From Coprinus comatus (Eukaryota > Basidiomycota > Agaricomycetes > Agaricales > Agaricaceae), in NCBI GenBank assembly GCA_034638255.1, contig JAWPGT010000038.1, positions 145,520 through 209,519 on the forward strand: 64,000 nt of DNA, given 5' to 3'. This document shows positions 729 through 57,954 of this stretch, one piece after another (position 1 is the first letter of the stretch; each line of letters opens with the position of its first letter). Below the pieces are notes generated by a model. It did no database searches. It saw only the letters and a program-made list of their open reading frames with translations, and was not told the origin of the DNA. The position numbers were made by a program, and so were the translations under genes.

Positions 729-1817
729 AGTTCTCTCAAAGAATTATAACCCTGAACAAATCAACGACTATCAGTGCAGAATGAATTGGGGTTTGGGGTA
801 GGAAGTCTATCCCTTTCAATTTAACTTCCTAATATATAATTTCACCCGTAACTCATGATGGGGTTACAGTCGAGACATCGAAGACGTTGCTGGGAAATAA
901 TTAAGATGTAATTCAGAAAGGGCGGGAATTCATGTACATATTGGATTGGAGGTGATGATACATTTGCTTATTAATAATTATAAGTCAGTACTATTATTAA
1001 CTTTTTCGTGACACCTTAACAACATCTCCACATTAAATGTTTTCAATAATCATTCTCTTTCAGAAACTAGATAGTAATAATTGTTAGGGGTGAGTCAGAA
1101 GAGAATGTAGAGCCCTCTTCAAGGCCTTGTGATAGGGAAAAAAAATCCTGAAAATTTGGATCCGGCGAGGTTGGGAAGACATAGAGCGCTTGTCAATGTC
1201 ACAAAATAGGCGACATGTCTTCATTTAAGCACCTGTCATTGTAAAATCAGGCTTCGAGGGAGCAACTGTACTTATAAGGAATTGTAGAGTGTAAATCAAT
1301 CACAATCGATGCTTAATCATGGCCGTCCAACATAGTTTTCAAGTTTCAACACTGCATGCGTGTAGTAGTACATCTGTGATCATCAAACTCAAGATAAATA
1401 CCAATCCGACGTCAAAAGTAATGTTTCCCGGGATCTGTCAATAAATGCCGAGCTTATGAGCACCTCTTCACTGGTCCTTAGTTCTGGTGAGTTGGTTAGG
1501 CTGGGAGAAAATAACTTTGTAAGGACGAGACTAATGTGATTCTCATCTTCTGAACCGAACAAATTCATGGCACTCACCTGCCACACGTATGCAAGTCAGC
1601 GTAACCTGGTAGCAAAAAGATTTGGTATTGGTAGCGCACCAGGGCAACATGCAATTAAAATTAAACACGAATAATATACCCAAAATCCGAGTACGAGTAT
1701 GTAGTAACTAGGAACCGAAAATAAATTTTACAACGTGTAAACAGAAGACTAACACTGACAAGAAACCGTTTGTCACCGACGTTCAACGCTCAACATCAGA
1801 CACCAAGAAAAGGGCAC
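729..1817. other. intergenic, nothing recognised
   Basis: AT-rich spacer between the DUF6534 gene and the 3' end of the SNF2 gene. One 65-codon minus ORF (1389-1586) has no family resemblance and no supporting neighbours, so it is not called. No repeat or RNA gene is evident. Confidence 0.5.
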
Positions 1818-4800
1818 TTAAGAAGCAATTTCCTCTCCCATCATTGCACCAAGTGTATCATTTCCATGATCTTTCGGCGCCTCATAGACAGCAAAAGCAG
1901 CCTTCTTACCATGAGCACGATCCCCATCGGCTACATTTTCTCCCAACTTATGCGATGTCCAACCCAGACCACGAGACTCGAACACTTCAGGACTTCGGTC
2001 TAGTAACATGTTCAGATGTTCATCGCTTAAGACACTTTCTTTGCCCTCATCTGTTTCGGGTACAACGTCAATCTTCTCTCCTTCCAAACGTAACAGTTCG
2101 GAAGCCATGTCGGCCATTGTCAATTGCTTTCCACTCGGAGCCATAGAGGAAGGCATCTTGAACTTGCCTAGAGAGCATTGGTTAACATCGGCAAAAAGAT
2201 AGGCTATACCATTAATCCCATACCTTTGGCAATCACCAAAGCTTCGAGCTTCTTCTTTTCTGTCGCCCGCTGCATGATCTTATCTTCAATCGTATGTGCA
2301 CTAACTAACCGATAGACAAGAACAGGTTTGGTCTGCCCTATTCGATGGGCTCTATCTTGAGCCTGTGCATCCATCTGTGGATTCTGTCCGAGGTGTCAGC
2401 CGAAACCTTAAGAACCGAGAATCTGGATTTACCCAATCCTGATCATAAAAGATCACCGAGTCCGCTGCAGTCAAATTAATACCTAGGCCACCTGCTCGGG
2501 TACTCAAAAGGAATATTTTTGGAGAGTCCTCAGTCGCGCTTTGGAACAAGTTCATCTGAGCACGACGTTCTTGTGGCGAGGTTGTACCATCAATACGACA
2601 GATTTTCCAACCCATGAAGTCAGTGGCCCAGTCCTAGGATGAGTATGATTAGTGCCTGTTAAAACGTTTAATGAGGATTAAAGTCACCTCAATAATATCC
2701 AACATAATCCGAAATTGACTGAAGACTAGCACACGATGACCACGTTTGAGAAGCTCTCTTAGCAATCGATCAAGAACCATCATCTTTCCACTAGCATTTA
2801 CTAGTTCAGCACCAAGAACAGGTTCATTGGTCTTTGGATCAATGGGCCAATTAAAGAGGAACGGATGCGAACAAACTTTTCGCAATTGCATGACCGTATT
2901 TTGAAGCCTCATATTATTAATAGTCTTGACTATCCCATAGTCAGTACAGAGACTGTGATACCACAAGGTAATTTCTCACCTTTAGCTTTCGTTTGGTATT
3001 CAATCGCTTTTCTCTTCCGCTCCGCTTCTTCCTCCTCCTTGCTTAGCTCTTCTTTGATGCCGCGTTCATCTATGAGCCCTTGTTCCAACTTATCAAAGTA
3101 TTCCTCATCGCTTCCATCAACCCGATAGCTCTTTATCCCTACACGTTTACGTAACTTCCTGGGGGCATTACTGGGCTCAGCTTCCTCCTCCTTGTGTTCT
3201 ACTACTGCTTTAGCACCGCCCTTACTTGTACCGTTATTCATCAACCAGCGTCGGATGTTCCCGTTAACGATACTTTGATACGCTTCGTTCTGACGAACAC
3301 TGAGAGGTGCATATAAGACGTACTCTTTCTTTGGTGGTAATCCACCCTTTCCGTTCTCATCATTCCCGAGAACATCTACCTTAAGTCGACGTAATAAAAA
3401 GGGTTTCAGGATAGCATGGAGAGCAGAAACAATCTGAGTGGATTGATCTGTAGGCAGCGTAGACTGCAGAGTCGGTAGATTGAACCACTCTTGAAATGAA
3501 TCGAGATCGTCAAAAATATCGGGCAAGATGAAATTCATTAGCGACCACAGTTCAGAAAGGTTATTCTGTAGCGAAAAAGGTAAGATATACTTGCATCCTT
3601 GGAGTGTAGTGAGTTTCTTACATGCAAAGGTGTTCCGGTTAATATCATTCTTCCAGCACTTGAATACTTTTTTATTTCTCGCATAAGCATGCAATCCATG
3701 TTTTTCAGGCGATGTCCTTCGTCTACTACAATGTATCCCCAATTATAGCGGGTCAAGTGTATACGATCCTTGATGATCATTTCGTAGGTGGTAAGTACGA
3801 TGGGAAACGATGCCCGTGGGTCCTCTTCACTATTTATTTGTGGTGTCTCTTCATCCTCGTCTTCGTCCTCGTCTTCGACTTGGCGGGAAGCGCTAGCACG
3901 ACCGCGATTCGACTTTTTTACGTGACCTTTGGCCTTTTTAGCCGGTTTCTTCTTTGGCGCCGTTTTCTTCTGAGTAGCGACCCGATCTTCGGGAGGCAAC
4001 ATGGTGGTACGGCGCAGTTCTGCACGTTCTGCTGGCGTACCATGGTATATACAGACGGGTATCTATAATTGAATTAGCATCTCGGAGCTTTTTGCATAAA
4101 TGAGGTATACATACAGAGGGAGCAAATTTTTGATATTCGTCAAACCAGTTGTGAAGCACACTGAGAGGGCAAACGACCAGAAATGGCCTTGTATTATGTT
4201 GTTCGCGAAGATAAGCACTAAATGCTATTGTTTGCAAGGTCTTATATGCGTGTCAAAATCACTCAACGAGAAGCAACAACACATTGACATACCTTTCCAA
4301 GACCCATTTCATCGGCTAGAATGTTTGTGAATCCCGAGAATTACAAAGAGAGCTGAAACCTACCTAGAATACCACTTATTCCATTCTGGTCGAGTGAGAC
4401 CATCCATTGTAAACCCTCAAGTTGGTAATTTTTCATTCTTGCGCCCGTAACAAGCGCTGGTTGTTCAAAAGCGACATGCTCATCAGCTTCTGTGGGCAAA
4501 GCATTTCCATTCTCGCCCTTCTTTCGCTTTGAAAGAGGGTCCTGGTCCTCTTCATCATCAATGCGTAACCTCTTTTTGCCTTTCCTTGCATTGGTCGGTT
4601 TAGCTTTCTTTGCTTTCTGAGCTTGTAAAAGTTTCGCTTTATCCTCTTCCATACGCTGATGCAGAATACTGGTATACACTGCCGACTTTTCGAGAACGAA
4701 TTTCAACCTTGCCAAGCGGCGAGTAGTTATCTGTCTTTGAGGGTTAGACGGTAAATTTGGAAACTTGTATCATCTTACCTCGTCGCCTGCAGGCTCATTA

Positions 4801-5273: not shown

Positions 5274-6947
5274 CTAATTTTTTACCGATGAATTTGACAC
5301 AAATGTAACATCAGCCTGAGCCTTTTTGAATTCCCCAACGCTTTCCCGGAATTTCTTACTCGCAAAATCAATCGCCTTTCCCAATTGATCCTCCATTTCT
5401 TTACTGCGTTCTTCCGAACTCCCATAACTTCTATACGGAGTCTTCCCAAATACATTCCACCATTCACCAGAAAATGGATGTCCGGGAGCACCAATATATC
5501 CCCAAGGTTTCGCAGTTGGTGGTTGAACATATGGATTGAGTACCTCAACTACGGAAGGGTTCACTGGTCCAGTGAAATGAACAATAGCAGGATCATCCAT
5601 TTCTTTCATCTCCATCTTCGATCTTTCTGGTGAGGGGTACCGAGCATAGGTTCCAAGACCTTGTCCGTTCCATTGCAAAGAAAAAGGAACCCAATCTTTG
5701 AAATGAATATTCAATACATCTTGATCCCGAAATTTAACATCTTTCATCTCTCTCCCCTTTCGTCGGAGTACCTCGCTCAATTCACGTATCTTGGTTAAAT
5801 TCATGAGCATGACCCCAGCATTGAAATAAGGATGTTTCTCGTTCGGGTCGTGTCCCATAGGATGACCAACGTCCTGGACAGCACCGATCGCCCTATCACC
5901 AAGATCAGACTCCCATAATGGAGTAAGGTCCTTGCGAACAAGGGTGTCTGCATCAAGGTACAATACACGTTCAATCGGGAGGACGGTATCAAGATCGAGC
6001 TTGGCCCAGATAGGACCCAACTCGACCGCAATACTGTTCTGAGGAAGAGGTAGGAATGTCAATGTGACCCCGTCTGATCTTGGCAAAGATTGGCGTAACA
6101 ACGCTTTGTCTTCTTCGGTCAAGCCCCCACAGTCAACTATATAGATGGAGATACGTCCAGGAGTACAGTCAACCGCACTGTAAATGGTAGCTGCGGCAGA
6201 CCTGACGTAGGATGAGTCGATGGCGAGAGCGATGTTAATCCCATAACCTAACGCATCCTTCAATCGACTTCTATCTTTTCCCGGAACAAGAAATCCTATC
6301 CGCATATCCACAATCTTCCTCAACACAACCTGATAACACTCTTCTCCAGTAAGCTTTTCATACTCTCCTTCATGAAGTTTTAAAAATCCCTCTATCCCTC
6401 TTCTCGGATGATGAGCACTATTCTCTGGTTGACTATCCCAATGATAATCATCAAAAATCATAATAGCACCTTTCCTCGCCAACCTCCAACATAACTCCCC
6501 ATCCAAAAAGGTGTCATCAGCTTCATGTGAACCATCAACATAAATCCAATCATAACCTGGTTCCTTCTCTTCCATCTCCTCCTCTAACAACATCATCAAA
6601 GCTGGAAAACTAAACTGAGCCAAAATACGATAAAATTTGTTGTTTCCACTACCAGCCGCAACACTAAGGTTATGTTGAATTTTCGCATAACGTTCTCTTC
6701 CTGCTGCAGTTTCCAAGAGGTCAAAATGGTCGATACAGACAATGGATCCTGTAGGATTACATAGATGTGAGAGGAGATGGACAGCGGAACGACCTTCCCA
6801 TGAGCCGATTTCTAGTACTCGAGGTGAAGAACAACGATTTTTGATGGAAGTAATAAAGGGTTCCCAATTTTGGATATTATGAGAAAACCAGTCTTGAGTG
6901 AGTGTAAAGTTATATGGCGACTCGGTGGAGAGGGATTGAGCCTTCAT
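5274..6947 (-). CDS. methyltransferase-GT8 glycosyltransferase fusion (557 aa)
   Basis: Single-exon two-domain protein. Residues about 15-215 form a class I SAM-methyltransferase-like fold of the Methyltransf_24/CmcI kind: motif I VLEIGSWEGRSA (44-55), acidic IDHFD (72-76), YVDGSHEADD (136-145) and IFDDYHW (164-170). Residues about 230-485 are a GT8-type transferase: ALAIDSSYVRSAAATIYS start, DAD metal site in VLYLDADTLV (333-335), YFNAGVMLMNL (374-384), DQD (408-410) and the C-terminal HFTGP...KPW signature (457-482). No signal peptide or membrane helix is seen, so it probably faces the cytosol. A close paralogue with an inserted membrane segment lies at 13237-15150, and a sugar epimerase-glycosyltransferase gene lies directly upstream. 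Inferred role: transfer of a sugar and possibly O-methylation of the product; neither substrate can be read from sequence. Confidence 0.85.
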   Translation of the reverse strand: MKAQSLSTESPYNFTLTQDWFSHNIQNWEPFITSIKNRCSSPRVLEIGSWEGRSAVHLLSHLCNPTGSIVCIDHFDLLETAAGRERYAKIQHNLSVAAGSGNNKFYRILAQFSFPALMMLLEEEMEEKEPGYDWIYVDGSHEADDTFLDGELCWRLARKGAIMIFDDYHWDSQPENSAHHPRRGIEGFLKLHEGEYEKLTGEECYQVVLRKIVDMRIGFLVPGKDRSRLKDALGYGINIALAIDSSYVRSAAATIYSAVDCTPGRISIYIVDCGGLTEEDKALLRQSLPRSDGVTLTFLPLPQNSIAVELGPIWAKLDLDTVLPIERVLYLDADTLVRKDLTPLWESDLGDRAIGAVQDVGHPMGHDPNEKHPYFNAGVMLMNLTKIRELSEVLRRKGREMKDVKFRDQDVLNIHFKDWVPFSLQWNGQGLGTYARYPSPERSKMEMKEMDDPAIVHFTGPVNPSVVEVLNPYVQPPTAKPWGYIGAPGHPFSGEWWNVFGKTPYRSYGSSEERSKEMEDQLGKAIDFASKKFRESVGEFKKAQADVTFVSNSSVKN

Positions 6948-7576: not shown

Positions 7577-10500
7577 TTAGAACATAACCCTCCAATTCCA
7601 AACGAGCATCAAAACAAAAATGAGCAAAAATCGTTCAACCGAATTTCTTCTCTCTTCCATCCTTGGTCCATTTCCTACTCTCCCAACAAACCAATCAAAT
7701 CTTCTCCCCAAGCTACCCCACTCCTTTCTATCAACAATTCCACGCAATCTACCAAATTCACTGAACATCCTGATGAACGAACTCTCAACAACAGCAAAAA
7801 ACAACCTAAATCGGAATCTTCCCTTTCGCAAAGTCGTGTTAATCGCATTTGTTCGTTCTGGATGACGAAGTAAATGCCTCCAGATGTCATGAATAACATT
7901 TGCCACCATCGTCATAAAGATAAACTCCACCATAAACATGAGAGTGGACCCAGTATTCTGTAGAGGTATTGTTAGTGGTATTAACATTGCGAGTCCAATA
8001 CATTCTGTACTATTAGGCGCGTAATCCCAATAGCTCAAATGCGGATAGGCAGCAATTAAATGACCATCTCCAACGCTCCACAAATAAAAACGCCAATATG
8101 AACGACGTCCGGAGTTCCACCATGGATGGGTTACAGTTACCGTAGGTGCCGCAATAAAAGTCCTCGTATTCGTTTTATTTCCATTTTCTTCAAGCTCGTT
8201 TGTAGTTCTCGGTGAGTCGGATGATGGAACAATGCAAGAAGGGACAAACGGAGAAGGAAGTGCAATGGATGCCTCGCGTTGTTTGAGACAATAATCAATG
8301 TCCTCTCCGCCCCCTGTCTTCGGATAGACAAGAGAGAAACGCGTGACCGGAACAGAAGTCAAAACACGGTTGCAAGAGTTTGATAAGTGTATATCCTGTT
8401 TATCCCTAGAGGTTGTAGAAGAAGAATCTGCCCATGACAGTAAGGACCGCCTCGAAACAAGGTTAGCAGTTACTCCCCAAGGAATATCCATCCCAATCTT
8501 AGTGGCAATATCCCAGAAATACGTAACTCCTGCCAGGTGTACAGCAGTTGTGAATATTTCATGAGAGGGAGGGAATTGAGTATTGCCGACAAAACCTGCG
8601 GCCATGGGATTCGCATCAATGTACTTGGCAAGTTCATGTATGAGATTCCGAGCAGGAATGACGTCATCATCGAGAAAGTGTACCCAATCAGCCGAAGACT
8701 CAGATAGTCCTCGATTGCGAGAATAAGGTGCACCACGGTTCGTTTCGTTGACACGAATACGGATGCTTGGATCTGCCGAATGAGAATGAAGTAAGGTAGG
8801 AATGTGGGGGGATTCCGGATTGTCAACAATCACGATGCGATTCAGAGAAACATTGTCTGGCGCCTCGAGTGAAAGAATATTATCTAAAATTGGAAGGCAG
8901 ACGCGATAGCAAGGAATAATGATGTCAATGGTGGTTTTTTGATATCGTGAGATCTGCGTGAGGTCGATACCTTGAGTTTCACAAAGCCATAATGAGATGG
9001 TATTAGACGCAGTAGCCAGAAGTTCCAAGGACCAGTCACGGGTGTGTTGCTTCATATAACGAGCATCGACTGAACCTCCAATGACATTTGTGAGGCGACA
9101 CGGAAACATAACTGAGGCACCCCAACGACGATACAACTGGAAAAGAAAGGGGTCTCCGTCCTGATTGATAAATACATCGGGAATTACTTCACCATTGAAA
9201 ATATCCATGTGGGTTTTATGAATGATCGGGAACGTTGGCATACCGGGAAAGGATTGGTCTGTGAACGCAACACATCCTACACCATGAGGGAGCCTGGTGC
9301 TTTGGGCAATGGAAGCAAATTGATGGTCCGCCTTTCGCATCCATCCTTCATCTTGTATAATAATGTCATCTCCCACAAGCACATAATAATCGCATTTGTC
9401 TTCATAAGCTCTGCGAGCACAATCTCTCCAGATACTGCATACATGGCCCTTGGGGAAATTACAAAGGACAAGCCGAATATGAGATTCGGGGATTCCAGCA
9501 TCCAAGAGAACCTGATAAGCCACATTTCCATGTCGAAGATAATCATCGTCCTCGTCAATTGCAAGATAGATTCTGTATGTGTAGACTGGATGAGAAAGGG
9601 AGTTTGTATCCCTCCAAGTGGTATCCTGGAAGGAAACTATGAATTTCCTGAGATTTTCAAGACAAGCGCTGGGGTCGCTCGAACCGCGTGAGGTTATGGG
9701 AAGAAGAATACCGTACGTAATTCCTTCGGCAGACAAATGAACCAACCGGCTTGATAGAAATGAATCAAGCACCTTTCTTCTAAGCTGAGTATCCGTATAG
9801 GAATTCAACAAGTGCGCCATATCCGCTTTCAACCAACCGCAGGTCTCCAACATGCCGTCTTCAAGAGAGGTGGATGGTTGCCACGCCAGGATGTCTCGAG
9901 CGTGTTCGTTATTTGAACTTCGCGAAACAACTCCCAATGGCTTGGTCGTATCATATGTAAAAATAACTTCTGACTCGTCCAGTCCTGCGCAACGGAGGGC
10001 AATTCTAGCCAATTGAGAGATTGTGACAGATCTATCAGAACCAATGTTTACAGGTCCAGGATCTGTACATGAAGTAAGCAACAGCTTGAGTGTGGCGTCG
10101 ACGGCATCGTCGATGTAAAGGAAGCTTCGGCGTTGGGTCCCGCCACCCCAAATCTCAAAATTCGGTTTTTCACCAAATTCCTTGACGAGGTGTGAGCATG
10201 CCAAAGCTTTTCTCAAGAATGCCGCCGGAGCTTTCTCACGGCCATTGTTCCAAACTCCACGTGGACCAAATACATTATGAAACCGAGCAATGCGTACTTG
10301 AATCCGGTCAGAGTCATATTGCGTTAGCAATAACTCAGAACTGAGCTTCTCCAAGCCATAAAGCCCTTGAGGAGAGGGAGCACCGCTATCAAAGACACTA
10401 TCCTCTCGGAGGGAGATATCCTGGTCAGAACTCTGGAGAGCTTCGGGATAAACACAGGCCGAGGACGCATAGAAAATTCGAGAAACGCTATTGCCAGGCA

Positions 10501-10896
10501 TCGAGATGACTTTGAGCAAATTTTGCACCATCGCATGATTCTGCTCATAGATCACAGAATCATTGGCCGAATGAATAGTTCCCATTCCCCCCATCGTGGC
10601 AGCGAAATGCATAACAATATCGATACCTCGAAGGGCGGTAACGCATGTTGAAAAACTGCAGAGGTTCCCGTGGATAAATTCGTGGCAAATGGGGACGATC
10701 CCAAACGGCGATACATGATTAATATCTATGATTTTTACACGATAATTGGGAAAATTGTCGAAAAGTCGTTTTGCGACATGAGAACCCTAGTCAGATTCAT
10801 GAGTGAGATATGACTCAACAGACTCGAGGAATGTGCATTATTACTGACTATAAACCCATGCCCTCCAGTAATGAGGACGGTGCTGGTGGGATTCAT
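7577..10896 (-). CDS. GDP-mannose 3,5-epimerase-like / glycosyltransferase / GT2 tri-modular protein (1085 aa)
   Basis: Two exons: 10896-10849 (16 codons) and 10786-7577. The splice completes the NAD-binding GGHGFIG motif. Residues 1-345 are an extended SDR most like plant GDP-mannose 3,5-epimerase: AATMGGMG, SSACVYPE (Cys127), YGLEK (Tyr159, Lys163), FHNVFGPRGVWNNGREKAPAAF (Lys201) and IWGGGTQRRSF. The four catalytic residues known for that enzyme (Cys, Tyr, Lys, Lys) are all present, predicting GDP-L-galactose production. Residues about 370-625 are a GT-A-like module (YGILLPITSRG; AIDEDDDYL; YYVLVGDDI with DD at 489-490). Residues about 635-930 are a GT2 module (DIIIPCYR; WVHFLDDDV with DDD at 722-724; GGGEDIDY about 841-848). 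Hydrophobic stretches in the last 150 residues suggest a membrane anchor. The donor GTCAGT is canonical GT. Activity of each module is inferred. Confidence 0.87.
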
Positions 10897-11297: not shown

Positions 11298-13005
11298 TCA
11301 TCCGAAGTAATAGATTTGAAATGTAACAGGGTCCGTTGACTGAAAGTCGCATGAGATTCTCTTCGGGGAACGTAGGTAGGAGAATAGACCAACCGATTTG
11401 AATCGACTCATAAGGCAAACACCATTCATCATCATGCCTGCTGAAAGCTCAGGGATCAAAGACAGAACCTCCACAGATTGGAGATTTCCGGGAACTTCAA
11501 CTGCAAGAATACCAAGCGTACCGTGTGATTCAGTCAATTGCAAATGTGTGGGAGCACTGTTCGCATTGTTCATGCGAACGTTGTGCTCATGCAGGTGGTG
11601 GGGGTTGAAGGAAAGGATAGAAACCACATGTTCGTCCTGCAGGTCGATAAATCGCTGGCCATGACAGGCGGTAATATACTCAGAGAATTTTGTAGACCAA
11701 GAACAAACATCCGGTGTCCAATCTTGCCAAGGTATTATTTGACAATTTGAGGTGGACCATGTAGACTCGGTGGGTAGTCGGTTAATGATCGACTTCCTGT
11801 GACACTGCATTGTAAGCGGCCCAATGTAGTCATCGTTTTCTACAACTACTATATCCCATGAGAGTAGAATCAGACCATCATCAGGTCGTTCCCTAAACGG
11901 TCGTGCTGGTGATGTGTACTTCGGGAATGAAGCACGGCCAGTTGGGTGAGGTGATGAATAAAATTGAACAGCTTTCATTGACAGGCCTGGATGTAGGGGA
12001 GGAAGGCCCATACGACAGATGTATTCAATTAGTTTGCCAGGTGAGGGTATGATGTAATAGATATCAAGATATCTGTCCTCATCGTGCGGATGCAAGAATA
12101 GATCGTCTCGAAGAAGAACAAGTCCCAGGTTAGAAACTGGGGTTGGAGCCTACGTCTTATGTTATCATTCGGTTTAAATAAGCAACTGAATAAGAAAATA
12201 GCTCCAACTCACGGCTATGCTTAATCCCGTTTTCCATTCGTATATGTAAAGGCAAAACCAGGAGGTAGATATTTGCAATATCATGATCAAGTTCTCCCCA
12301 GCAATTTCGAGATTTACATCCAAGATCGGAAATTCTGGACGCTCAAGTTCGATTTGAATTCCGTCCTTGTTAGCCAGAGGATGGCGATTTCCAGTCGAAT
12401 GTTGAAAAAGGTGGATGCGAATTTCTAAATTCGAGTGAGAAGACGCTACATTGCTGTACACCAAAGACTTCGGTTACGAGTGACAAATGATGTGCATTAT
12501 GTACGTACCTTGAAACACATGCGAGGAGATCATTTTCTTCAATACAAGTAGCAAAGTCGATCATGCCATCAACGTAGAATAAGGTCCAATGGTCTTCACA
12601 ATTAGGATCATCCTTTTCACTAGGAATTCGATAGGATTGCACGCCGTTAGGAGAACAATCTTGGGCTGGTGCCATTCCAAGTAGAATATATTCATCACCA
12701 ACCTCATATTGGTATGATATCGGTTGAGGTGGTGAGATAGATGATATGTAAGAAGGTTCAAAGGATAACCATCGTTGTTCACGTTCCAAGAGTTTTTCCA
12801 AACGATCACGAATCGGCAAAGTGCACAATGGATTATCATCGACGCCTGCTAACTGACATTGAAAGGCATATTGTAGCTTGATGGATTCTTCATAGATTTT
12901 GTGCAAACGACGATTAACAACCTTCACCGCACCGGCATCTTTCACTTCCAAATTGACAAGGATATCAACCAGAATCTCGGTGGGAAGAGCGAGGAAAAGT
13001 GACAT
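11298..13005 (-). CDS. F-box protein (529 aa)
   Basis: Predicted substrate-recognition subunit of an SCF ubiquitin ligase. Three exons, 13005-12509, 12453-12213 and 12149-11298, keep one frame. An N-terminal F-box (residues about 6-45) contains LPTEILVDILVNL followed by VNRRLHKIYEESI, and a long beta-rich C-terminal region follows (QYEVGDEYILLGM, RPFRERPDDGLILLSWDIVVVEN) as in the large agaric F-box families. An in-frame ATG at 13065 would add 20 residues, but the ATG at 13005 puts the F-box at the usual distance from the N terminus. It lies inside the glycan gene block on the same strand; no evidence ties it functionally to that block. Confidence 0.82.
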
Positions 13006-13236
13006 AGAGTTGAAAACAAAAAGCGCTTGCGCCCTACATGCAGGTATATGCCGTACAAATAACACGTGATAAAATTGAATAGATCATGACGTTGCGTCGT
13101 AGACTACCAGACAAATGCCTGGCATCTCGAATCTGAAATAGGATGCAGTTCCATCAGGTTAAACTTATCCTACGCTTTTGAGAAATCACTTGAAAAATAA
13201 TTGGAACTTCAAGTACTACTCATTAACTGATTCTTA

Positions 13237-15150
13237 TTAAATATGAGTATTCGACATTGAATAATAGTTATCTTCCATCCCCCTTAATTCTTTGACCCTT
13301 TCTCTAAACTGCTTACTTGCGACATCAATCGCCCTTTCCACTCTATCCTCAATATCTTTTCTACGAATAGTTGATATTCGGTAGTCCCGATATGGTGTCT
13401 TCTCAAGCGCATTCCACCATTCCCCTGAGAATGGGTGCCCAGGAGAACCAATGTATCCCCAAGGTTTCGCGTTGGGAGGTTGGATAGATGGATTAAGGAC
13501 TTGAACAAGAGATGGATTCATCGGTCCAGTGAAGTGAACAATCACAGGATTTTCCATTTCCTTTACCTCCATCTTTGATCTTTCCGATGAAAGAAGTCGA
13601 GAAGAGGTTCCGAGACTTTGTGCATTCCATTGTACAGACAAATGAACCCAATCTTTAAAGTGGATATTCAACACATCTTCATCTCGAAACTTTGCTCCTC
13701 TCATCTCTCTCCCTTTTTGTCGAAGCGCGTCACTCGATTCACGTACTTTGGTCAAGTTCATGAGCAAAACCCCAGCATTGAAATAAGGATGTTTCTCGAT
13801 GGCATCATGCCCCATGGGATGACCTACATGAGCGATAGCGCCAATTGCCCCATCACCAAGGTGATATTTCCATAAGGGTGTAAGGTCACCACGGATGAAA
13901 GTGTCTGCATCGAGGTATAATACGCGTTCCATTGGGAGGATGCAATCAAGATCCAGCTTAGACCAGGTAGCATGACCCAACTCTTTTGCGATACTATTGT
14001 GAGGAAGAGGGAGGAATGAGAGGTTGACGTTGTTGGTTCTGGGTAATGATTGGCGTAACATGGCCTTCTCTTCTTCAGTTAATCCGCAATCAATAACGAA
14101 GATAGAAATACGACCAGGTGTGTGGTCAACTGCACTATAAATAGTCACTGCAGCAGACATGGCATACGTCGAGTCAACAGAAAGGGTAAGATTAATCCCA
14201 CTGTAATCTTCATCAAAAACCTCCCATGGACTTTGCAAATCGGCTCGAGATTTGTTAAAGCCAGTAGACCCACTCAAATCACCCATAACGTTTATTAACC
14301 CTCCTCCAAATGCAGAAATGAGAACCCAAACCAAAAATAAAAGAGCCAATGGAGCCATGAATCGAAAGCGGGAGGTGAAAGTCGGATAAGAAAAAGGTTT
14401 AATGATATGAGGAAATCTTGTGGTAGGTTGTTCCACCTTCACTCGATCTATAAAGCCTTTTGCTGGAGCAAAGGAACTAATGCGTATGTCAACTGTCTTC
14501 CTCAACACAACCCGGTCTTTCCAGAAACCAAACCCAACAACCCTTTCATACTCTCCTTCATGAAGTTTCAGAAATACATCTATGCCTTGTGTTAGATTCT
14601 TGGTTCCATTGACTGGAGATTGGTGATTGTCCCCGCCACAATAGTCGAAAATGATAACGGCATCCTTCCTTGCCAAGCGCCAACACAACTCCCCCTCTAA
14701 GAATGCATCCGAGTCGTTCGTCTGACTGGAACCATCAAGATAAATCAAGTCATAACCTGCCCCTTTTCCCAACATCTCTTCTTCCAACAACATCATTAAA
14801 GCTGGAAGGCTAAACTTAGCCACAATCCGATAATTATTTTCCCCTACAATACTGAGATTATGCTGGATATTCGCATACTGCTCTCTTCCAGGAGCAGTGC
14901 GCAAAAGGTCAAAGTGGTCAATACAAACAATTGAACCTGTGGGATTGCATAGTTGGGAGATTAAATGGACAGCAGAACGAGCTTCTCTCGATCCAATTAT
15001 CAATACTCGAGGAGACCCCGGATGAGTCTTGATGGAAGAAATGAGAGGTTCCAAACTTGAAATATTTTGAGAAAACCAGTCATCGGTCGATGGAAATTGA
15101 TACGACAACTGGGTAGAGTCGACTTGAGGCGTCTTTTTAGAAAGCATCAA
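13237..15150 (-). CDS. methyltransferase-like/GT8 fusion with internal membrane segment (637 aa)
   Basis: Single-exon paralogue of the gene at 5274-6947, with the same N-terminal methyltransferase-like domain, then GT8. The GT8 part is intact: VLYLDADTF (DAD 414-416), YFNAGVLLMNL, HFTGP and KPWGYIG. Two differences stand out. A segment of about 80 residues between the domains includes a membrane helix at about 264-290 (FMAPLALLFLVWVLISAFG). The methyltransferase motifs have drifted: the partner's EIGSWEGRS is here IIGSREARS, DGSHEADD is DGSSQTND, and FDDYHW is FDYCGG. SAM binding may therefore be lost. With the helix as a type II anchor, GT8 would face the Golgi lumen and the methyltransferase-like domain the cytosol; that topology is inferred. 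Confidence 0.85.
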   Translation of the reverse strand: MMLSKKTPQVDSTQLSYQFPSTDDWFSQNISSLEPLISSIKTHPGSPRVLIIGSREARSAVHLISQLCNPTGSIVCIDHFDLLRTAPGREQYANIQHNLSIVGENNYRIVAKFSLPALMMLLEEEMLGKGAGYDLIYLDGSSQTNDSDAFLEGELCWRLARKDAVIIFDYCGGDNHQSPVNGTKNLTQGIDVFLKLHEGEYERVVGFGFWKDRVVLRKTVDIRISSFAPAKGFIDRVKVEQPTTRFPHIIKPFSYPTFTSRFRFMAPLALLFLVWVLISAFGGGLINVMGDLSGSTGFNKSRADLQSPWEVFDEDYSGINLTLSVDSTYAMSAAVTIYSAVDHTPGRISIFVIDCGLTEEEKAMLRQSLPRTNNVNLSFLPLPHNSIAKELGHATWSKLDLDCILPMERVLYLDADTFIRGDLTPLWKYHLGDGAIGAIAHVGHPMGHDAIEKHPYFNAGVLLMNLTKVRESSDALRQKGREMRGAKFRDEDVLNIHFKDWVHLSVQWNAQSLGTSSRLLSSERSKMEVKEMENPVIVHFTGPMNPSLVQVLNPSIQPPNAKPWGYIGSPGHPFSGEWWNALEKTPYRDYRISTIRRKDIEDRVERAIDVASKQFRERVKELRGMEDNYYSMSNTHI

Positions 15151-33525: not shown

Positions 33526-36500
33526 CGAAATCTTTCCACCGTGCTCTCCTGCTAACTTATTAATAGCATTCAACAGATCCCCTCTTCTCAATGGTTCTAC
33601 AAAGAAGAGAAAACACGACAATTCATCAACAAAAGGAAAAGAAAAAGAAAAGAATAACGTACTAGTAATATGATCATCCATACCAGCTTGCAAACACCTC
33701 TCACGATCACCAATCATAGCATGAGCCGTAAGTGCAATAATAGGTGTCGGAGTCAATCCTTTATGCATTTCAAACGACCTAATTAATTCCGTAGCTTGCA
33801 TACCGCCCATGAACGGCATTGACACGTCCATCTATGAAAAAAAAAATAGAAAAAAGTTTTCGATTAAAAAACCAGAAAAAAGAACACACAACAAAACTCA
33901 CAAGAATAATATCAAAAGGTCTCCCAGCAGCAACTCTCGCTTTAAATGCATCAACCGCCAAACTTCCATTCTCAGCAATCTCAACCGTATGACCATATTT
34001 CTCCAAAATCTTAACCGCCAACTTTTGATTAACCAAATTATCCTCCGCCAACAGAATATCAAACGTAACATCATTAGGTGCCGATACTGGACTAACAGTA
34101 TTAGATTCTAATGCTGTTATTAGAGCTGATGCTAGATCTTGAGCTGTTACTGGCGTTGTAACTTGTGAGGATATACTGTTATCGAGACACCATTTGACTG
34201 TTTTGTTTTCGTCAATTAGTCAAAGTGAGGAGAGAAAACGAAGTGGAAGACGTACGATTCAAACGTGGCATCTTGGGCGCGAGTAATACGATCGGAATAT
34301 ATCTCAAATGTTCAAGTTCGCGAACACTCTCCGTCTACCAAAAAACCATCCATCATCCATAAGCCATTATTTATACCCTGGGGAAAACAAAGCACTCACC
34401 ATTCCAAGAGCATCAACAACAATAGTATCAATATGCGGACACTTTTCTTTATCCGCAACTTCACTAACATGATGAACCATATGCGGTCTCAACCCCAATT
34501 CTCTAATCCTACCAACCACATCCGTCGTATCCATAAGTGTATCCACAAACAAAATCGTTCTCTTTGAAAATGGTGCCATTTTCGCCAAAGTAGCTTCCAT
34601 TGATGAATATGATATTTGGGATGAAATTGTGAAAAAGAATTTAGATCCTTTTGAAACTTCACTTTCTACCCACATATTTCCTTGCATTAGGTTCACAAGT
34701 CTTTTCGAAATTGATAATCCAAGACCTGTACCACCATATTCCTAAAGAACAAACAAAAAAAAACACGCACAAATCGTCATTAGCACACAATGCTCATCAC
34801 GATCCCAGCAAAAAAAGAAAACTCACTCTCGTAGTAGACCCATCAGCCTGACAAAACGTATCAAAAATCAAATTCAACTTATCCTTCGCAATCCCAATCC
34901 CAGTATCCATAACCGCAAACTCCAAAGTAACCAATTGATCATCCATAGCCAACAATCTACAGCTCAAAGCAACATGTCCTTTCCTAGTAACCTTGCTAGG
35001 AGTAAACTTGATCGCATTCCCAACCAAATTCGTTATAACCTGTCTTAACCTTAACGAATCTCCAATCAATTGATCCGGAATATCAGGTTCGATTTCGTAT
35101 GTTAGATCCAAGTTATTTTGAGATGCTCGGACTACTAATGTTTTGAGGATTCCGAAAACGGTTTGTCGAAGTGAATAGGTTACTGCTTCCATTGTCATAC
35201 GTCCTGCTTCGACTATTCACAATAACCAAAATAATTAGAATTTTTTTAAAGAGAGATAGAGAGAGAACGTACTCTTCGAAATATCCAAAATATCATCGAT
35301 AATCAACAAAAGCGACCTAGCCAAACTATGAACAAGTAACAAACTCTCCCTCTGTGATCTATTCAAATCACTATCCAAAGTCAACTCCGTCATTCCAATA
35401 ATTCCATTCATCGGAGTCCTAACACTTATTAGTAAACTACTCCTTTATCAAAGAGAGAGAGAGAGAGAAACACACACCTAATTTCATGACTCATATTAGC
35501 CAAAAACTCACTCTTACTCCTATTAGCCAACTCTGCAGCTTCTCTAGCAGCTGTATTCTTCTGAATACTATCTCTCAAATTAAACACCATCTGATTAATC
35601 TGAGTTTTCAAAGAATCCATTTCTCCAGAAGCTTCAACAGTAATAAATCTCGTGAAATCGCCATCCATAGCCGCTGCCGAAATTTGTGCAAATCCTCGAA
35701 CTTGAGTTGTCAAGTTTCCTGCCATAGTATTCACGCTCAACCTATATCATTCCGAGTGATTATTAGTTTATGAACAAAGAGGAGTGAAAAAAAAAAAAAA
35801 AAAAAAGAAAAAAGAAAAAAAAAAAAAAAACATACGTAATCTCCTGCCAAATACCCTGCACATTCCCAACTTCAGCTTGTACACCCAACTTTCCTTCCGT
35901 TCCTACTTCTCTCGCCACTTTCTTAACTTCAGCAGCAAATATAGCCAACTGATCGATCATATCATTGATCGTATTAACCAAATTTAACATTTCTCCAGAT
36001 ACCGAAACTCCTCTGATCTTTTGTGTTAAATCTCCTCTTGCTACTGCCGTCTGTGGATATGTGCGTGGGGCGTTAAACCGAGAGATGAGCAAAGGAAGAA
36101 GGGCAGTACTTACAGTAGCAACAGCAATAGTTCTCACTTGCAACGTCAACTAAAAAAAAAATCTCTCAATCAACACCCACCATTCCCAATCACAACAACA
36201 AGTATTAGCAAACACTCACATTATTAGCCATAACATTAACATTATCCGTCAAATCCTTCCAAGTCCCACCAACACCCGTAACTCTAGCTTGACCACCCAA
36301 CCTACCTTCAGTTCCAACCTCTCTAGCAACTCTCGTAACTTCATCAGCAAAGACACTCAAACTCTCCGTCATACCATTAACAGTTTCCTTCAATTCCAAA
36401 ATTTCACCTCTAACATCAACTTCAATCTTTTTAGTCAAATCACCACCAGCAACAGCTTTCGTAACTTGAGCAATACTCCTAACCTGATTTGTTAAATTCA

Positions 36501-39500
36501 TAGCCATCAAATTAACATTATCAGTCAACACTTTCCACATTCCTTGAACATCTGGTACAGATGCTTGTCCTCCTAAAATACCTTCTGTTCCAACTTCTAA
36601 TGATACCCTTGTTACTTCGTTTGCTAATGTTGAAAGTTGGGCTACCATTGAGTTTACTGTTAGTTTTAAATCTAACATTTCTCCTTGAACGTCTACGTTG
36701 ACTTGTTTGTTTAGGTCTCCCAAGGCTACTGCTTTTGTTACTTCAGAGATGGAACGGACTTGATCTGTTAGATTCGAGGCCATTTTCTATTCCAATTATT
36801 AGTATTTGTGTAATAGTTAGCGCGCGAGGAGGGGAGCGAGTGGACGGTAAAAGTCGCGAGAGGGAGGACGTGCACAAGAGGATGTAAGTCGCAACAGTGT
36901 GCAAATCACGAGAGAGAGTGTGTGAGTGTGAGTGTGAGTGTGTAGATCGCGAGAGAGAGTGTGTGTATAGGTCACGAGGGAGACTACGAAAATCGCATAT
37001 GAAGCGGAAAAACACACATACATTAACATTCCTAGTCAAATCCGCCCAAGTTCCTTGAACACCTTCAACTCTAGCTTGTCCACCAAGTATACCTTGAGTA
37101 CCAACTTCCAAAGCTACTCTAGTAACTTCAGAAGCAAACGCTGATAATTGATCTACCATTGAATTAACCGTGCCTATAATTGTAAGCGCGTAATTTTTTT
37201 TAATCAATTTTGTTTTTTAAAAAGGGATTAAGAGTAAATAGAGGGTGGTGGTGGTGGGGAGAACGTACCTTTCAAAGTAGCCATTTCACCTTCGACTTGA
37301 ATTTCAATTTTTTGAGTTAAATCTCCTCTAGCTACAGCCGTTGTGACTGTAGCTATAGATCGAACTTGATCAGTCAGAGATGAACACATCCTATTGACCT
37401 AAAACAGCTGAATTAGTAGTGATTCTTGAACCGAGAGCGAGGATGGGACGGGGATGAAGGTGAGGTGAAGGTGAAGGTGAAGGTGAAGATGAAGACGAGG
37501 ATGAGGACGAGGGTTAATGTAAAGGTGAATGTGAATGTGAAGTCGAAGACCAAAATAAACAACTCATCCCCAATCCCAATCAAAAAAAGAAACAGAACAA
37601 AAGAATTCGCAGAATAGAAAATAACCACCCAACACTCACATTCCGAACCAACTCAAACCAAACACCCTCAACATCCGGAACATGAGCCTGACCACCCAAC
37701 TTTCCTTGAGATCCAACTTCCAAAGTAACTCTAGTAACCTCCGCGCCAGCGCCCTTAACCTACAATACGCACAGGCAAAATAAAAAAAAAAAGGTATATC
37801 AGTATATCAGTATATTCAAGTTTAACAAAATAAAAAAAATAAGTTTAAAAAAAAAAATATATAAATGAAAAAAAAGACAGAAGAACATACGTACCTAACA
37901 ACCATCCCATTAACAGTATTCTTCAAATCCAAAATCTCACCTCTAGCATCAACTTCAATTTGTTTCGATAAATCACCCAACGCCACTGCTTTAGTAACTT
38001 TCGCAATCGATCGTACCTATAATATTTGAATGGGATAACGAAATGAAAAAGAAAAAAAAAAGGAATAAGAACCTGAGATGTTAAATTCGCAGCAAGTTTA
38101 TTAACCACACCCGTCAACTCTCTCCAAGTTCCTTCAACATCAAGTACCAAAGCCTGACCACCCAATTTCCTAATTAAATAAATAAACAAATAAAATAAAA
38201 AAACATCCATAAAAAGAACTCACCCTTCAGTTCCAACCTCCTGACTAACTCTAGTAACCTCCTTCGCAAACTGTCCCAACTTATCCACCATAGTATTAAT
38301 AACATCCTTCAACTGAACCATAACCACACCTTGAACCGGTACTGTAATTTTCTGACTCAAATCACCTCTAGCCACAGCATTACAAACCCTAGCAACATCC
38401 TGAACCTGAGCTTTCAATAATTTCAATTCTTCCACCGCACTCATTCCACTTTCAAAAGCAGCATGAGCAAGAGGTCCCATACTTGGTACAATCATAGGAG
38501 AACTTCCATTTGAACTAACGATATGTTCACCATTCACATTCGTAGTTGAGGTTATCGTTGATGAAGGATGTACAAATGGAATAGCATGTTCAATTAATCC
38601 GTAACCGGCATAAAGGGGTAACATCATTGGATCTGAAATGGTTTTGCCACATGTTGGACAGTAAGTGTGAGCTGTTGGAGGTGCTGATGCTGATCCGTTG
38701 GCATTTCCATTTGCGAGAGCATTAGCATGAGCGGCACTTGTAGGTTTGAGACTACTGATACTGGCGTAGAGTTGATTTGCTTCGAGTGTTGCGGGGAGTT
38801 GACCAAGAGAAAGAGAAGGTCTGGAGGTGGTGGTGTGTTCTTTCTTGACTTTATCTTTTGCCTTGTTGGTCTTGGTGGTGGTAGTGTTGGAGGAAGATAT
38901 TGATGAGGAAGAAGAAGCGGGAAAAGTGGACTTTGGCTTTGAAGGAACGGAAGATCCGGAGGTTGAGATATAGGTAGTGGTAGGCTTTGGGGTGATGTTG
39001 TTATCTTTGTTTGTGGGTGTTGTAGAAGACTTTGAAGTGGTAGTAGAAGTCGTTTTGTAGAGTGTTTTTGAGGGAGGACAGGGACGGTCTTTGAGAGTTT
39101 GATGCTGGGCCGATGGGAGTGAAGAGATTGTCGACAACAAATAGTTCGTTTATTGCTGAATTCTTTGATTTTACGTCTGTTTTATCTTTTGGTTGATCGC
39201 CACTCATCAAGGGAAAGTAGCTGCCCGTACTTTCTGCAGAAGGGAAATACCCTGTTCTGGATGCTGGAAAACTAGCCTCGAGAGGAGGAACTGCGGCTGG
39301 CATGTTGATATTGGCGTCTGTGTCGTAGTTGCTGTGTTCCCTGTGGCATCTTCGCACCTGCTCCTCTGCCGTCCACAGTCTTTGACCCAGAGCTACGATG
39401 GCTCTGATAATCGCATCGTGCTGCCAATTGCGAACACCATGCCAGACAGGAGCAGGTGCAGATTTTGTACCGAGTTCATATACGGAAAGCAGGAGGACAA

Positions 39501-45763: not shown

Positions 45764-48553
45764 TCAAATTACTTCGTTATTTTTGTCTCCAGGTCCCAAA
45801 CGTTCAGATTCGGGATTATCTTCTGGAGACTCTATCAAAGGACTTATAAAAGTTGAAGTCCCTACAAACTTGTCCTTCGTTACCACTATATGTCCTCGTA
45901 TCATGTCCGAGTCATTATTTGAACCCAATGTTCCCTCTTGATGATCTCCCGTTGACTCCTTATTCAAGGTAGTATTGCTTATCTCTGCACCTAATCAGAA
46001 TGAACAATGTTGATCAGTCAAGAAAACCAATTTTCGAGCGCCCAGATAGTGACATACCCATATCATCAACCTTACCAGGTCCACCAGTACCAATTCCAAG
46101 ATCTCCATCTCCAACTTCATTTTCACTCTTCACTTCAACCACCTCTAACTTTACCAAATTTTTCCCATCCTTATCCTCACCCTCATCATCATCAACACCC
46201 GCTTTCAACTTTTCCAACAACACCAACGTCTTGAACTTCTAAATTAAGATTTCCTCCAGACTCTTCATATTTCTCAAATAACGCCTTCAACCTATTATTA
46301 AACTCATCAATCAACTCAACAGCAGATTGATCTTTCGTTATTCTTCTAGGATGATCAATAAAGAATCGACTTGGATGAAAAACACAATTCTTCAACTTCA
46401 TTATTGATGTAATCGAAGTCGAGGTGGTGGCAGAAGTCGAAGTGGTGGTGGCAGAAGTCGAACGAACACAATATTCTTCAGCACCTTCAACTATCACATT
46501 AAACATTTTTCCAATTTGAGGAATCATAAGTGTCGGCCAATCTGCACGTTCCATCAAATAAACAATATACAAAAACATTTCATCCAATGTTGAATCTTCT
46601 TCTATTGTTGGTAATCCTTGTGTAATCAAATATTGAATGATTTCGTAGAATCCATTAATGGTAACTGAACGGAGTGAAGAATAATACCAAAACATCAATC
46701 AATTTTACTCATCCAAGAAGAGAGATAATAAAAAAAAAGAAAACCAAGTCAAAAAAAACTCACAATTTTCAAGTGAACATCTAGGACACTTTACAAGTAA
46801 CCCCCCAATCAACATTTTCCTAAGCTTATCTTTATGAACCGAAGATTCCAAACTCGGAAAAACCCCATTAAAAATCCTAAGCACAGCCGTACAATTCCTA
46901 TGATTCTCCACAACAACATGTTTATCCCTAATCTTATCACAAAGTGTAGTAATAAGATCTGGATAATCCGAATCAGGTGTATACCGTTTACACAAGTTAA
47001 TTAGAATTGGTATTGTGTTTGGACATATAGCTGCTGAATGTTGATCGATTAAATAACAAGTTGCAGCGACTGCACAGTGATCGGTTATTGAGATCGTATT
47101 GGTTCCGGGATTTGTTACTAGGGCTTGATTAATTGCCATTAAAAGACCTAAATCATTGTAAGAAAAAGAGACGCGAAGTAGCAAAGAGCAGAAATTCAAT
47201 CATACCTTGTGCATCACCCTCATTCGACACTTGTAAAAGTTGATACACATCACTTTTCGAATCAACATCCACCTGAAGCATTTCCATTTTCTCCCATATC
47301 TGAGAAAACGCTCCAAGACAAGCATTCCAAACAGACAAAGAAGAATCCGTAGTAAAATTCATCTTGAATTCATTCAAAGTAGGAAATCCAAATGCAGTCC
47401 AAGCAGTTTCTGGAACTCGTATACGTTGAATTAAGACCCATCTACCGACTTTTAATTCCGGTAATAGTTCACAAGAAGTGTCTGTAATCGCAGATAGGAA
47501 ACATCTATAAGCGTCTTTAACGACATCTTTACTTTGTTTGAACTCCATTGCGATCCATTTCAATGCAGGATATATGCTTTTAGGAGTTTCATACTTGTCT
47601 GTCCACCAAGTATCATAATCCGTCCAACTGTTGAGTTCCCTAAAAGGTGCCAATCGATCGAACAATAGTTTGTTGTTTGTGAAGGCACGGATTGTTGAAA
47701 AGAGAATTCGAAGCATGCAATGAACTAGCCATGCTTGAGGAGATCGATAGGGACAGAGTACCGGAGGTGGTAAACTATCAGCAGGATCCTCCATTGTCAT
47801 CTTTGGAGCTCTATATTTAGCCAACCAAATGACTTGTAATGATGGTAAGAAGGATGTTATGATAATAAATAGACCAGCAAGCGCAACCAGAACAGTTACA
47901 GGCCCAGCAGCAAGAGCATTCGCATCCCATTGTGCGAGGAAGAATCCAACAAAGAATAAGGCCAGTGATACGAGTAGGAGTAATGGTAAAGCGTTGAGAA
48001 GAGCCAGAACTCCCCACTTTCGCATACTTCGATGTCGTTGATTTTGGAGAGAAAGGTCTGCTTTGTGGGAAAGTCCTGTGATGTTTCTGTTGAATTCTCG
48101 TAGCCATTGGAGACATACGATTCCTCCGAGTACTGCAATGAGACTGAGTGTGAGACTGACGGAGTAGAGAACATAGATTCGTTGAACATGCGGGGAGACG
48201 GATTGATCTGGTTCCAAATTGAGTGGGAAGTCTGATAATGGTTGTGGATTTGAGATGTTGTGGACCTGTTGAATGAGGGTTTGTAGTAGAAGTACTGTCA
48301 TTGCAGCGGAATCACCCTCGATCACACTAGCAACTTCAATCGTGAACGAGGTAACAATGGCGGAGAAGAGAGAAGCCTTTGGAACGAAACATCATCGGAT
48401 CAGGAATCTATTTTACTACACCAAATGTGATGGCAAACTCACGAATATGAGAAGATTGTCCAACTCATCCTTCCATCTGTCGTATGTTTCTCGTGTCAGT
48501 TCCTCTGCCTTTTGGTTGATATTTATCCAGGGGTCATCATTTTGATTATTCAT
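45764..48553 (-). CDS. DUF6535 membrane protein
   Basis: Agaricomycete-specific family of unknown function. Exon 1 as called begins MNNQNDDPWININQKAEELT (48553), with the family hallmark YDRWKDELDNLLIF, then ASLFSAIVTSFTIE. Three or four helices follow: VQRIYVLYSVSLTLSLIAVL, WGVLALLNALPLLLLVSLAL, and LVALAGLFIIITSFLP. A long soluble region ends in an acidic tail (DDDEGEDKDGKNLVKLEVVE) and a last exon ending DKNNEVI (45764), joined by a clear GTATGT donor at about 46053. An intron near 46240 is needed to reach the acidic tail; its donor is uncertain, and without it the protein ends at 46192. An upstream exon (IQLLDADEKLDS, about 48650) may belong to the 5' end, so the true start may lie higher. 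Confidence 0.75.
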
Positions 48554-54696: not shown

Positions 54697-55660
54697 CTAT
54701 ATGGGTTTGCGAGCACAGGACATAAAATAAACATGATTTACGCCAGGTTTATTGTTCCACCAGTCTTCTACTTCCGTTGCTGCCTTGTCAAACTCGCTAC
54801 TAGAAGCGAAATTATGTTCTAACGCAACCTTTTTAATTCCACGCTGAAATCCTCCAACAAACTTCACTGCTCGCTCCCCAGCCTCTCCTCCCCATTTTCC
54901 AAGTGGGAAAGTCCTTTTTTCAGATGTCACATCCACAAATCCTGCGTCTGCTAGCATACCTGGAAGCTTGGTACTGATTTCAGGCTCGAGGTCTCTAGTG
55001 GCGAATGCTTGCGCCTTGATTGTAAAAAACCTAAGTCCCCAATAATCTTCCGTCGCACCTTCACCTTCGTGATAGGAAGGTTCAAGAAACTCAACCCACC
55101 CTCCTGGCTTCAGTACCCTGTATATCTCTTGTATGGCCTTATTCCATTCCGACTTTCTTAAACCAGCAACTAATCGTCGCTGATGAACATAGGCGAAAGT
55201 ATTTGACCATTCTTGAGGCAATTTAGTGATGGAGTTTACCGAAAAGGAAACATCTTCGGGCTTCGATTCTGGGAACAAACGTGACTCTATGTCTATGCCA
55301 TGGATTAATACAGTGTCGGGTATAGTGGATGCAAGATCCAAAACCCATGCACCTGTAAATAATATCGGTATGTTGTTCAAAAATTCGCAAGCCACACTAC
55401 CTACCCGCAGCAGCACCAGATTCAAGAACTCTGTCCCCGTCTTCAAATTTTACTGGTGGCACAACTAATCTATTATCGAAAAGCCTAACATCGTTCACAT
55501 GCTGCATGAGTAATCTGAAGATTGGGTTAATATCACAGGAAATTCTTTATTCCACTTTCAAAACCCACCGTTCTCTTTCTTCATCGTCACATGGAAGCAA
55601 ATATGCAGTCCCCTCCGCCTTTGTATAGTACCTTTCCATTACTTCTGTAGTATTAACCAT
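54697..55660 (-). CDS. LaeA/UMTA-like SAM-dependent methyltransferase, divergent
   Basis: Starts MVNTTEVMERYYTKAEGTAY (55660). Three exons, the second holding MQHVNDVRLFDNRLVVPPVK and motif I VLESGAAAG, the third GAWVLDLAST, GIDIESRLFPESKPEDVSF, SITKLPQEWSNTFAYVHQRR, YRVLKPGGWVEFLEPSY and a C terminus HVYFMSCARKPI. Same architecture as the copies at 43 and 57-63 kb but the most diverged: motif I is SGAAAG in place of SGTGSG, and the C terminus has WWNNKPG in place of CEETP. Frame intact. Directly downstream of eIF3a's start on the same strand, 195 bases away; likely independent. Confidence 0.82.
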
Positions 55661-56938: not shown

Positions 56939-57954
56939 ATGACTATCGATGAAGAGTCTCAAGCTACTCAGGGTACTACAGGACCGGATGGCCGTAGATT
57001 CTTCGTCTCAGAAAAATCTCAGGAAAGTAGATATGTGTTACCAGCTGATGAGGAAGAAAGGACACGGTAAGTTGTATATACACCGGAAAACTCTTACATT
57101 TTACATTTAACTTAAATTTAGGTTAACTGAGCAAGGCGATGGAGTTGTTGATATTTTCGATAATAAACTCATCTGGGCTCCAGTTACTCTAAAAGATGGG
57201 GATATCATACTGGACAGCGGTACAGGATCAGGTATTTTATTTTAACAAAAGTAATGAAATTCCAGATACTAAATATCGTTTCTTTCGAGGTCAATGGATA
57301 TTATCAGTAGCCGACGAAGTCCCTTCAACAATCCAATTACGAGCCGTCGATCTGGAATTACGAATGTTTCCATCAAATCCTCCTCCGAACGTTTCAGCCT
57401 CCATAAATTCTATCACTTCCCTTCCTCAAGAATGGTCCAACTCGATCACCTTAATTCATCAACGTCTACTTTTAGCAGCATTACAAGAACATCAATGGAA
57501 ATCAGCTATAAATGAAATGTATCGAACACTTAAACCGGGAGGTTATATTCAATTATTCGAACCTCAATATGATTTCGTCACACCTAACAAAAATATCATA
57601 AACCATCCTATCGTTTTATCTCGTGATAAACTTTTCGAAATTCGTAAAGTAACATTCGACATTACAACGAAATTACCTAAATGGCTTGAAGATGTTGGAT
57701 TTGTAGGTTTGAAGGTTGAAAAGAGGGGTTTACCACTTGGTCGTTGGGCTGGAATACGTGGAAGAAAAGGTGGTCAGGCTACTTTGAATTTTTTTAAAGC
57801 TATTAAAGAAGCTGTGAGGAAAGAGAATTGGTTTGGGTTTGTTAAGGATGGTGAGGAATATGATGAACTTGTAGGTGATTTGGAGAGGATGTGTGATGAG
57901 ACTCCGGAAACTTATTTTATGTACTATGCACATGTGGCTCAAAAACCTCTGTAA
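56939..57954 (+). CDS. LaeA/UMTA-like SAM-dependent methyltransferase
   Basis: Starts MTIDEESQATQGTTGPDGRR (56939). Exons 56939-57066, about 57122-57231 and about 57290-57954. Carries SRYVLPADEEERTR, IWAPVTLKDGDIILDSGTGS, QWILSVADEVPSTIQL, LELRMFPSNPPPN, SITSLPQEWSNSITLIHQRL, MYRTLKPGGYIQLFEPQYD and KAIKEAVRKENWF, ending YAHVAQKPL. Intact, and closest to the copy at 43190-44218 (opposite strand). Predicted cytosolic class I methyltransferase; the acceptor is unknown. These families often sit in secondary-metabolite loci, but no such core enzyme is visible here. Confidence 0.87.

Follow-up and report, generated by a model that had tools for sequence, protein, structure and literature searches.

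What might a mushroom do with a polypeptide that joins a putative maker of an L-sugar donor to two glycosyltransferases? This question is raised by a gene of Coprinus comatus that lies at positions 7577..10896, on the minus strand, of the window, i.e., the whole analysed stretch of 64,000 nucleotides (assembly GCA_034638255.1, contig JAWPGT010000038.1, positions 145,520 to 209,519). The predicted protein consists of an N-terminal short-chain dehydrogenase/reductase (SDR) domain, a middle module with a GT-A fold, a GT2 module, and a C-terminal tail. Sequence, active-site residues, phylogeny, and fold all support placing the SDR domain in the GDP-mannose 3,5-epimerase (GME) family. The fusion gene is conserved across Agaricomycete genomes, and its function appears unexplored.

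The reading frame at positions 10786-7577 of the minus strand is open from stop to stop over 1069 aa. A 48-nt exon 1 with the ATG (10896..10849) can be spliced to it across a 62-nt intron (10787..10848, (-); GTCAGT...CTAG), which is a purely sequence-based prediction. This predicted splice restores the Rossmann Gly motif GGHGFIG, and because the join leaves no internal stop (0), the length of 1085 residues is correct. The coordinates and the length given in the first-pass annotation of this DNA were exact in this respect, and its division of the protein into SDR, GT-A-like, and GT2 modules is supported by the sequence and its residues as well as by phylogeny and fold. When 5.8 billion proteins were searched (E<=1e-3), 649 matched, of which the best 120 were examined. 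The latter are 927-1359 residues long and 46-57% identical, and since they cover 93-100% of the frame, the frame cannot be attributed to chance. Two stretches in the GT2 module (exon-2 residues 786-809 and 849-871) were modelled with a predicted local distance difference test score (pLDDT) <50. The inserts at both stretches are shorter in the four closest relatives shown and nearly nil in three distant ones. Among nine in-frame GT...AG candidates shown by a scan, the one that would excise the second insert (87 nt) has a non-canonical GAG acceptor. Missed introns are thought unlikely in view of this acceptor and of the shorter inserts in the closest relatives.

The epimerase domain (9815..10896, (-)) can be compared residue by residue with Arabidopsis GME. 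The domain has the Gly-rich NAD motif and the [ST]...YxxxK triad of extended SDRs. Residues S125, C127, Y159, K163, N187, K201, R236, and R305 correspond to Arabidopsis S143, C145, Y174, K178, N203, K217, R243, and R306, respectively. In full-length numbering, MGGMG is found at 81-85, SSAC at 124-127, YGLEK at 159-163, and GREKAPAAF at 198-206, so the signature and the catalytic Cys, Tyr/Lys, and Lys that the annotation had read from these motifs are present. The eight residues named in a GME review are kept in 120/120 fusions among the best matches. These include the catalytic acid Cys (C127, C145 in Arabidopsis), the catalytic base Lys (K201, K217 in Arabidopsis; His in E. coli Fcl), and the Arg that acidifies the Cys (R305, R306 in Arabidopsis; Lys in E. 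coli Fcl), each of them in 120/120 fusions. A GDP-L-fucose synthase (GMER) needs the Cys together with a His base and a Lys; Lys and Arg are found instead. In UDP-glucose 4-epimerase (GalE), the additional acid/base pair is missing, and the E. coli enzyme has Thr and Gly in the two columns, whereas the pair is present in the fusion protein. Other SDR identities were rejected on profile, residue, tree, and fold evidence.

A phylogenetic comparison gives the same picture. In a tree built by a quick method (71 rows drawn from 131, six outgroup rows), the domain falls among the GMEs and apart from GalE, GDP-fucose synthase, Gmd, and RmlB, with a Shimodaira–Hasegawa-like approximate likelihood ratio test (SH-aLRT) value of 91 for the branch to the outgroup rows and a root set by the analyst. 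A grouping with UDP-glucose 4-epimerases or other SDRs, which had been named as one way to overturn the assignment, was not obtained. The predicted fold shows an aligned identity of 36-38% to plant GME structures, and five of the six GME entries are separated from other SDRs by a gap of about 10 Z units. The Pfam scan is more general; the Epimerase model matches at 3.8e-23, and GDP_Man_Dehyd also matches the domain. The GDP-fucose synthase model NF047922 reaches 73.8 bits, far under its 500-bit cut-off. The enzyme identity proposed in the first-pass annotation is probably right.

The two remaining modules resemble glycosyltransferases to different degrees. The GT2 module (about residues 633-935; 8030..8938, (-)) matches PF00535 (Glycos_transf_2) with 56.8 bits against a cut-off of 23.3 (E 3.4e-15). 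It carries FLDDD at 720-724 and GGGEDID at 841-847, which we take to be its DxD and ED motifs, and HPWW at 903-906. The middle module (about residues 366-632; 8939..9739, (-)) has GDD at 488-490 and NQDGDP at 557-562 and matches GT-A enzymes structurally. Pfam gave no match between Epimerase and Glycos_transf_2 in the full protein. With the isolated middle module and an E limit of 10, it gave no glycosyltransferase family and three chance-level matches to other families, although the HMMER filters remove most matches above ~0.1. For both modules, phmmer found no match among solved chains at E <= 0.01. The tail (7577..8029, (-), including the stop codon) is modelled as long helices with hydrophobic segments at 963-981 and 1066-1084, and it is likely a membrane anchor. 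Taken together, a GME, a GT2 module, and a GT-A module that is as yet unclassified form a new combination of known kinds of part.

The distribution of the fusion helps to place it. The rows with organism names among the best 120 matches are, as we read them, all from Agaricomycetes, ranging from Leucocoprinus and Leucoagaricus (55-56% identical) to Tulasnella and Rhizoctonia. These nearly whole-length homologs carry automatic names without a tested function: “glycosyltransferase family 2 protein”, “NAD-dependent epimerase/dehydratase”, “hypothetical protein”, and in one row “GDP-mannose 3,5-epimerase 2”. The Coprinus genome holds a single copy, and the only other match (C2, E 1.5e-11) is presumably an SDR of the UDP-xylose-synthase type, judging from its motifs. 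In Lentinula aciculospora (P0130/P0244) and Cyclocybe aegerita (P0124/P0270), the epimerase and transferase parts occur as separate proteins; these are probably split gene models and possibly cases of real fission. No other locus in the window had been rated higher as a candidate new system. This rating has to be moderated: the predicted biology seems new, but the gene belongs to a family that is already in databases and conserved in Agaricomycetes.

Relatives outside this class indicate where the parts may have come from. A partial protein of Racocetra persica (P0246), which we assign to Glomeromycotina, keeps the architecture as far as its sequence extends. In bacterial and archaeal genomes, a scan with the middle module gave 53 pattern matches and one confirmed locus, which is a contig of 3.4 kb (L003) from a Verrucomicrobia metagenome-assembled genome. 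Its gene at 1675-3444 (+) begins just ahead of the middle module, contains the middle and GT2 modules, and adjoins a RadC gene. The same bin encodes a separate GME of 334 residues with all eight GME residues (L005, 1459-2463 (-)). Methylacidiphilum, presumably, shares a phylum with this free-standing two-transferase gene. Both transferase modules without an epimerase are also found in P0256, P0258, P0260, P0261, and P0264, although some of these could be fragments. A tree of 39 middle modules, built by a quick method and rooted on L003 by the analyst, unites the fungal rows, Racocetra, and one other row in a group (SH-aLRT 93) that does not include the rows lacking an epimerase. Most simply, the protein with two transferases would have existed first, and fungi would have fused a GME onto it. 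Since the epimerase and transferase parts are separate genes elsewhere and fused in fungi, their distribution suggests that they work together. Viral contigs gave 42 and 38 pattern matches to the transferase modules, and none was confirmed.

What, then, would the protein do? We consider it rather probable that it is a trifunctional membrane-anchored enzyme that makes GDP-L-galactose, with some GDP-L-gulose, and that one of its transferase modules uses the L-sugar for a membrane-associated glycan. In this way, the fungus would make and use an L-sugar donor within one polypeptide, as the first-pass annotation had proposed. GME family membership, the complete set of catalytic residues, the folds of the modules, the conservation of the fusion, and the finding that one bacterial bin encodes these parts in separate genes were all obtained by computation. 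From them we infer the activity, the donor, and the glycan, together with the L-sugar-using module, its acceptor, a cytosolic topology, and the role of the neighbouring genes. The enzyme would face the cytosol and be held at the membrane by its C-terminal tail. In a first step, the N-terminal domain would bind NAD+ and oxidise GDP-D-mannose at C4. The Cys/Lys pair would then epimerise C5 and C3, and reduction back would release GDP-L-galactose and some GDP-L-gulose. In a second step, one GT-A module would move the L-sugar onto a growing acceptor and the other would attach the sugar that follows, in the manner of two-domain synthases. In a third step, flanking methyltransferase-GT8 enzymes may lengthen and O-methylate the product.

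Several observations weigh against this proposal. At the positions of the GME Lys, R243, and R306, the Racocetra protein has Asn, Gln, and Gln. These three substitutions mean that the domain can be retained without the canonical chemistry of a GME; the Racocetra copy may have lost or changed its activity. The branch that separates GMEs from other SDRs stays below the level that the tool marks with a star, and the tree depends on a chosen root and came with warnings about long outgroup branches. The bacterial two-transferase gene runs off the end of its contig, and in the draft bin, it lies on a different contig from the GME. Its contig also has a lower G+C content than four other loci of the bin (0.617 vs 0.656-0.717); for these reasons, transfer or mis-binning of L003 is possible. 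Among the 387 genomes sampled in the phylum and the 320 in the order, whole-length matches occur in that genome only; two further genomes of the 387 show weak matches to the GT2 part only. Regarding the glycosyltransferases, the match to the fucosyltransferase WrtF (PDB 9OMH-9OMN; 6% identity) is tied with other GT-A enzymes, being within about 1 Z unit of GalNAc-transferases, chondroitin polymerase, and the synthases of heparosan and hyaluronan. The top Foldseek rank is TarP. These matches do not reveal the donors of the GT modules.

Of the rival explanations, the one that survives best, though we regard it as unlikely, keeps the epimerase active and changes its main product to another GDP-sugar, such as GDP-L-gulose, GDP-altrose, or a sugar derived from another GDP-hexose or heptose, from which the glycan would be built. 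The modest identity to plant GME structures allows such an altered specificity, whereas the constancy of the eight residues in all of the fusions examined speaks for the original one. A somewhat weaker case, which we find improbable, treats the epimerase domain as a structural or regulatory remnant, with GT modules that use ordinary donors (GDP-mannose, UDP-sugars). It can draw on the GT-module relatives without an epimerase (L003, P0256, P0258, and P0264, the P rows possibly being incomplete) and on the Racocetra domain without the key residues. However, the retention of catalytic and substrate-contacting positions in 120/120 fusions is unexpected for a remnant, and a GME is likewise encoded in the bacterial bin in which the GT pair stands alone. 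It is very improbable that GDP-L-galactose feeds an ascorbate-type pathway as in plants, with the GT modules as unrelated passengers. GME does take part in plant vitamin C synthesis (PMC8787198, part of the text), and fungi produce ascorbate analogues, including glycosides and 6-deoxy-L-ascorbate (PMC4396506, part of the text). Nevertheless, the fusion with two glycosyltransferases points toward glycan use, and the role is unlikely because the next plant enzyme, VTC2, is reported in Viridiplantae only, according to the available part of PMC4396506. Lastly, we find it hardly credible, despite the matching general models, that a GDP-fucose synthase or a UDP-glucose 4-epimerase merely resembles a GME in this protein, given the residue comparison with its controls, the tree, the fold gap, and, for the former, the separate GDP-mannose 4,6-dehydratase matches in the genome. 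A weak GDP-fucose-synthase-like fragment that shares a contig with one of these matches could not be confirmed.

The proposal of an L-sugar glycan synthase can also be considered in terms of its neighbourhood. Two paralogous fusions of an S-adenosylmethionine methyltransferase domain (Methyltransf_24) with GT8 flank the epimerase gene on the same strand and are its possible partners. Copy a (5274..6947, (-); 557 aa) matches Methyltransf_24 at 3.9e-17, and its GT8 part is nearest to LgtC in the PDB (E 5.4e-16). Copy b (13237..15147, (-); 636 aa) scores 24.7 bits, below the 26.3 cut-off, its methyltransferase motifs are altered, and it has a hydrophobic helix in its interior. At E<=1e-5, the genome has only these two such fusions among the best candidates scored, which is a lower bound. 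The three genes suggest a 10-kb glycan locus. The two copies probably stem from a tandem duplication and therefore count as one coincidence. A genome of this kind holds an estimated number of glycosyltransferase genes on the order of a hundred. The neighbourhood is suggestive rather than decisive, because the chance of one GT gene within 10 kb is estimated at several per cent. Between the epimerase gene and copy b, the stretch 11298-13065 (-) contains an F-box-like frame (12373-13065; 23.7 bits vs a cut-off of 24.3) and, near it, a frame without a Pfam match.

Elsewhere in the window, three Methyltransf_25 frames (54697-55446 (-); 57196-57954 (+), below the cut-off; 62457-63134 (+)) occur within 8.5 kb and are perhaps a local methyltransferase family. 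One frame at 36205-36783 (-) has two HAMP matches and may belong to a multi-HAMP histidine kinase of the fungal type. Pfam also identified an SNF2-related domain (2930-4002), DUF6535 (47153-48325), and the PCI/TPR region of eIF3a (52364-53886 (-)).

Known systems share individual parts with the fusion. The two glycosyltransferase modules can be likened to those of two-domain GT-A synthases (chondroitin polymerase K4CP, heparosan synthase PmHS2) and to hyaluronan synthases. All of these use UDP-sugar donors and are not known to have a domain that makes a nucleotide sugar. Plant GME (Arabidopsis 2C54/2C59/2C5A/2C5E; Myrciaria dubia 8SG0, 8SKB) is described as a separate homodimer, whereas the fungal one is the first of three fused modules. 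The GME of Methylacidiphilum fumariolicum belongs to the same family, and the accessible part of its description mentions no fused transferases (PMC6678494).

No description of a fungal GDP-L-galactose pathway or of this fusion was found in the titles, opening lines of abstracts, and passages that the literature searches covered, mostly outside subscription journals. A survey of fungal nucleotide-sugar pathways with a species tree of 491 fungi has, in its available part, no GDP-L-galactose in the pathway legend and 0 occurrences of “GME” in the main text (PMC8092308). Similarly, no word starting with “fung” occurs in the available main text of a GME review (PMC8787198), and “GDP-L-galactose” occurs 0 times in that of a Ganoderma metabolic model (PMC6298397). 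L-galactose is confined to the reference list in PMC13106811, and the available part of PMC12295706 contains nothing on GME. Literature searches on WrtF and on GT8-methyltransferase fusions in basidiomycetes found none.

The predicted glycan is a good prediction drawn from the sequence, and it is the biology, rather than the gene, that seems new. A wider proposal is possible but tentative: an L-galactose/L-gulose glycan system in which a self-supplying synthase, with a two-transferase module of bacterial origin, works with methyltransferase-GT8 partners that complete an O-methylated surface or lipid-linked glycan. If this were true, Agaricomycetes would share a class of “donor-making” synthases for glycans, and their products would go beyond the nucleotide sugars named in the available part of the fungal survey (PMC8092308). 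If the prediction holds, a new glycosyltransferase family would start with the middle module, and the protein would be a natural case of a donor-making enzyme joined to the transferases that it supplies, of use in the synthesis of rare L-sugars. Routine sugar analysis does not separate D- from L-galactose. Mushrooms would, if the prediction holds, have an overlooked L-sugar glycan with a bearing on wall chemistry, lectin recognition, and symbiosis.
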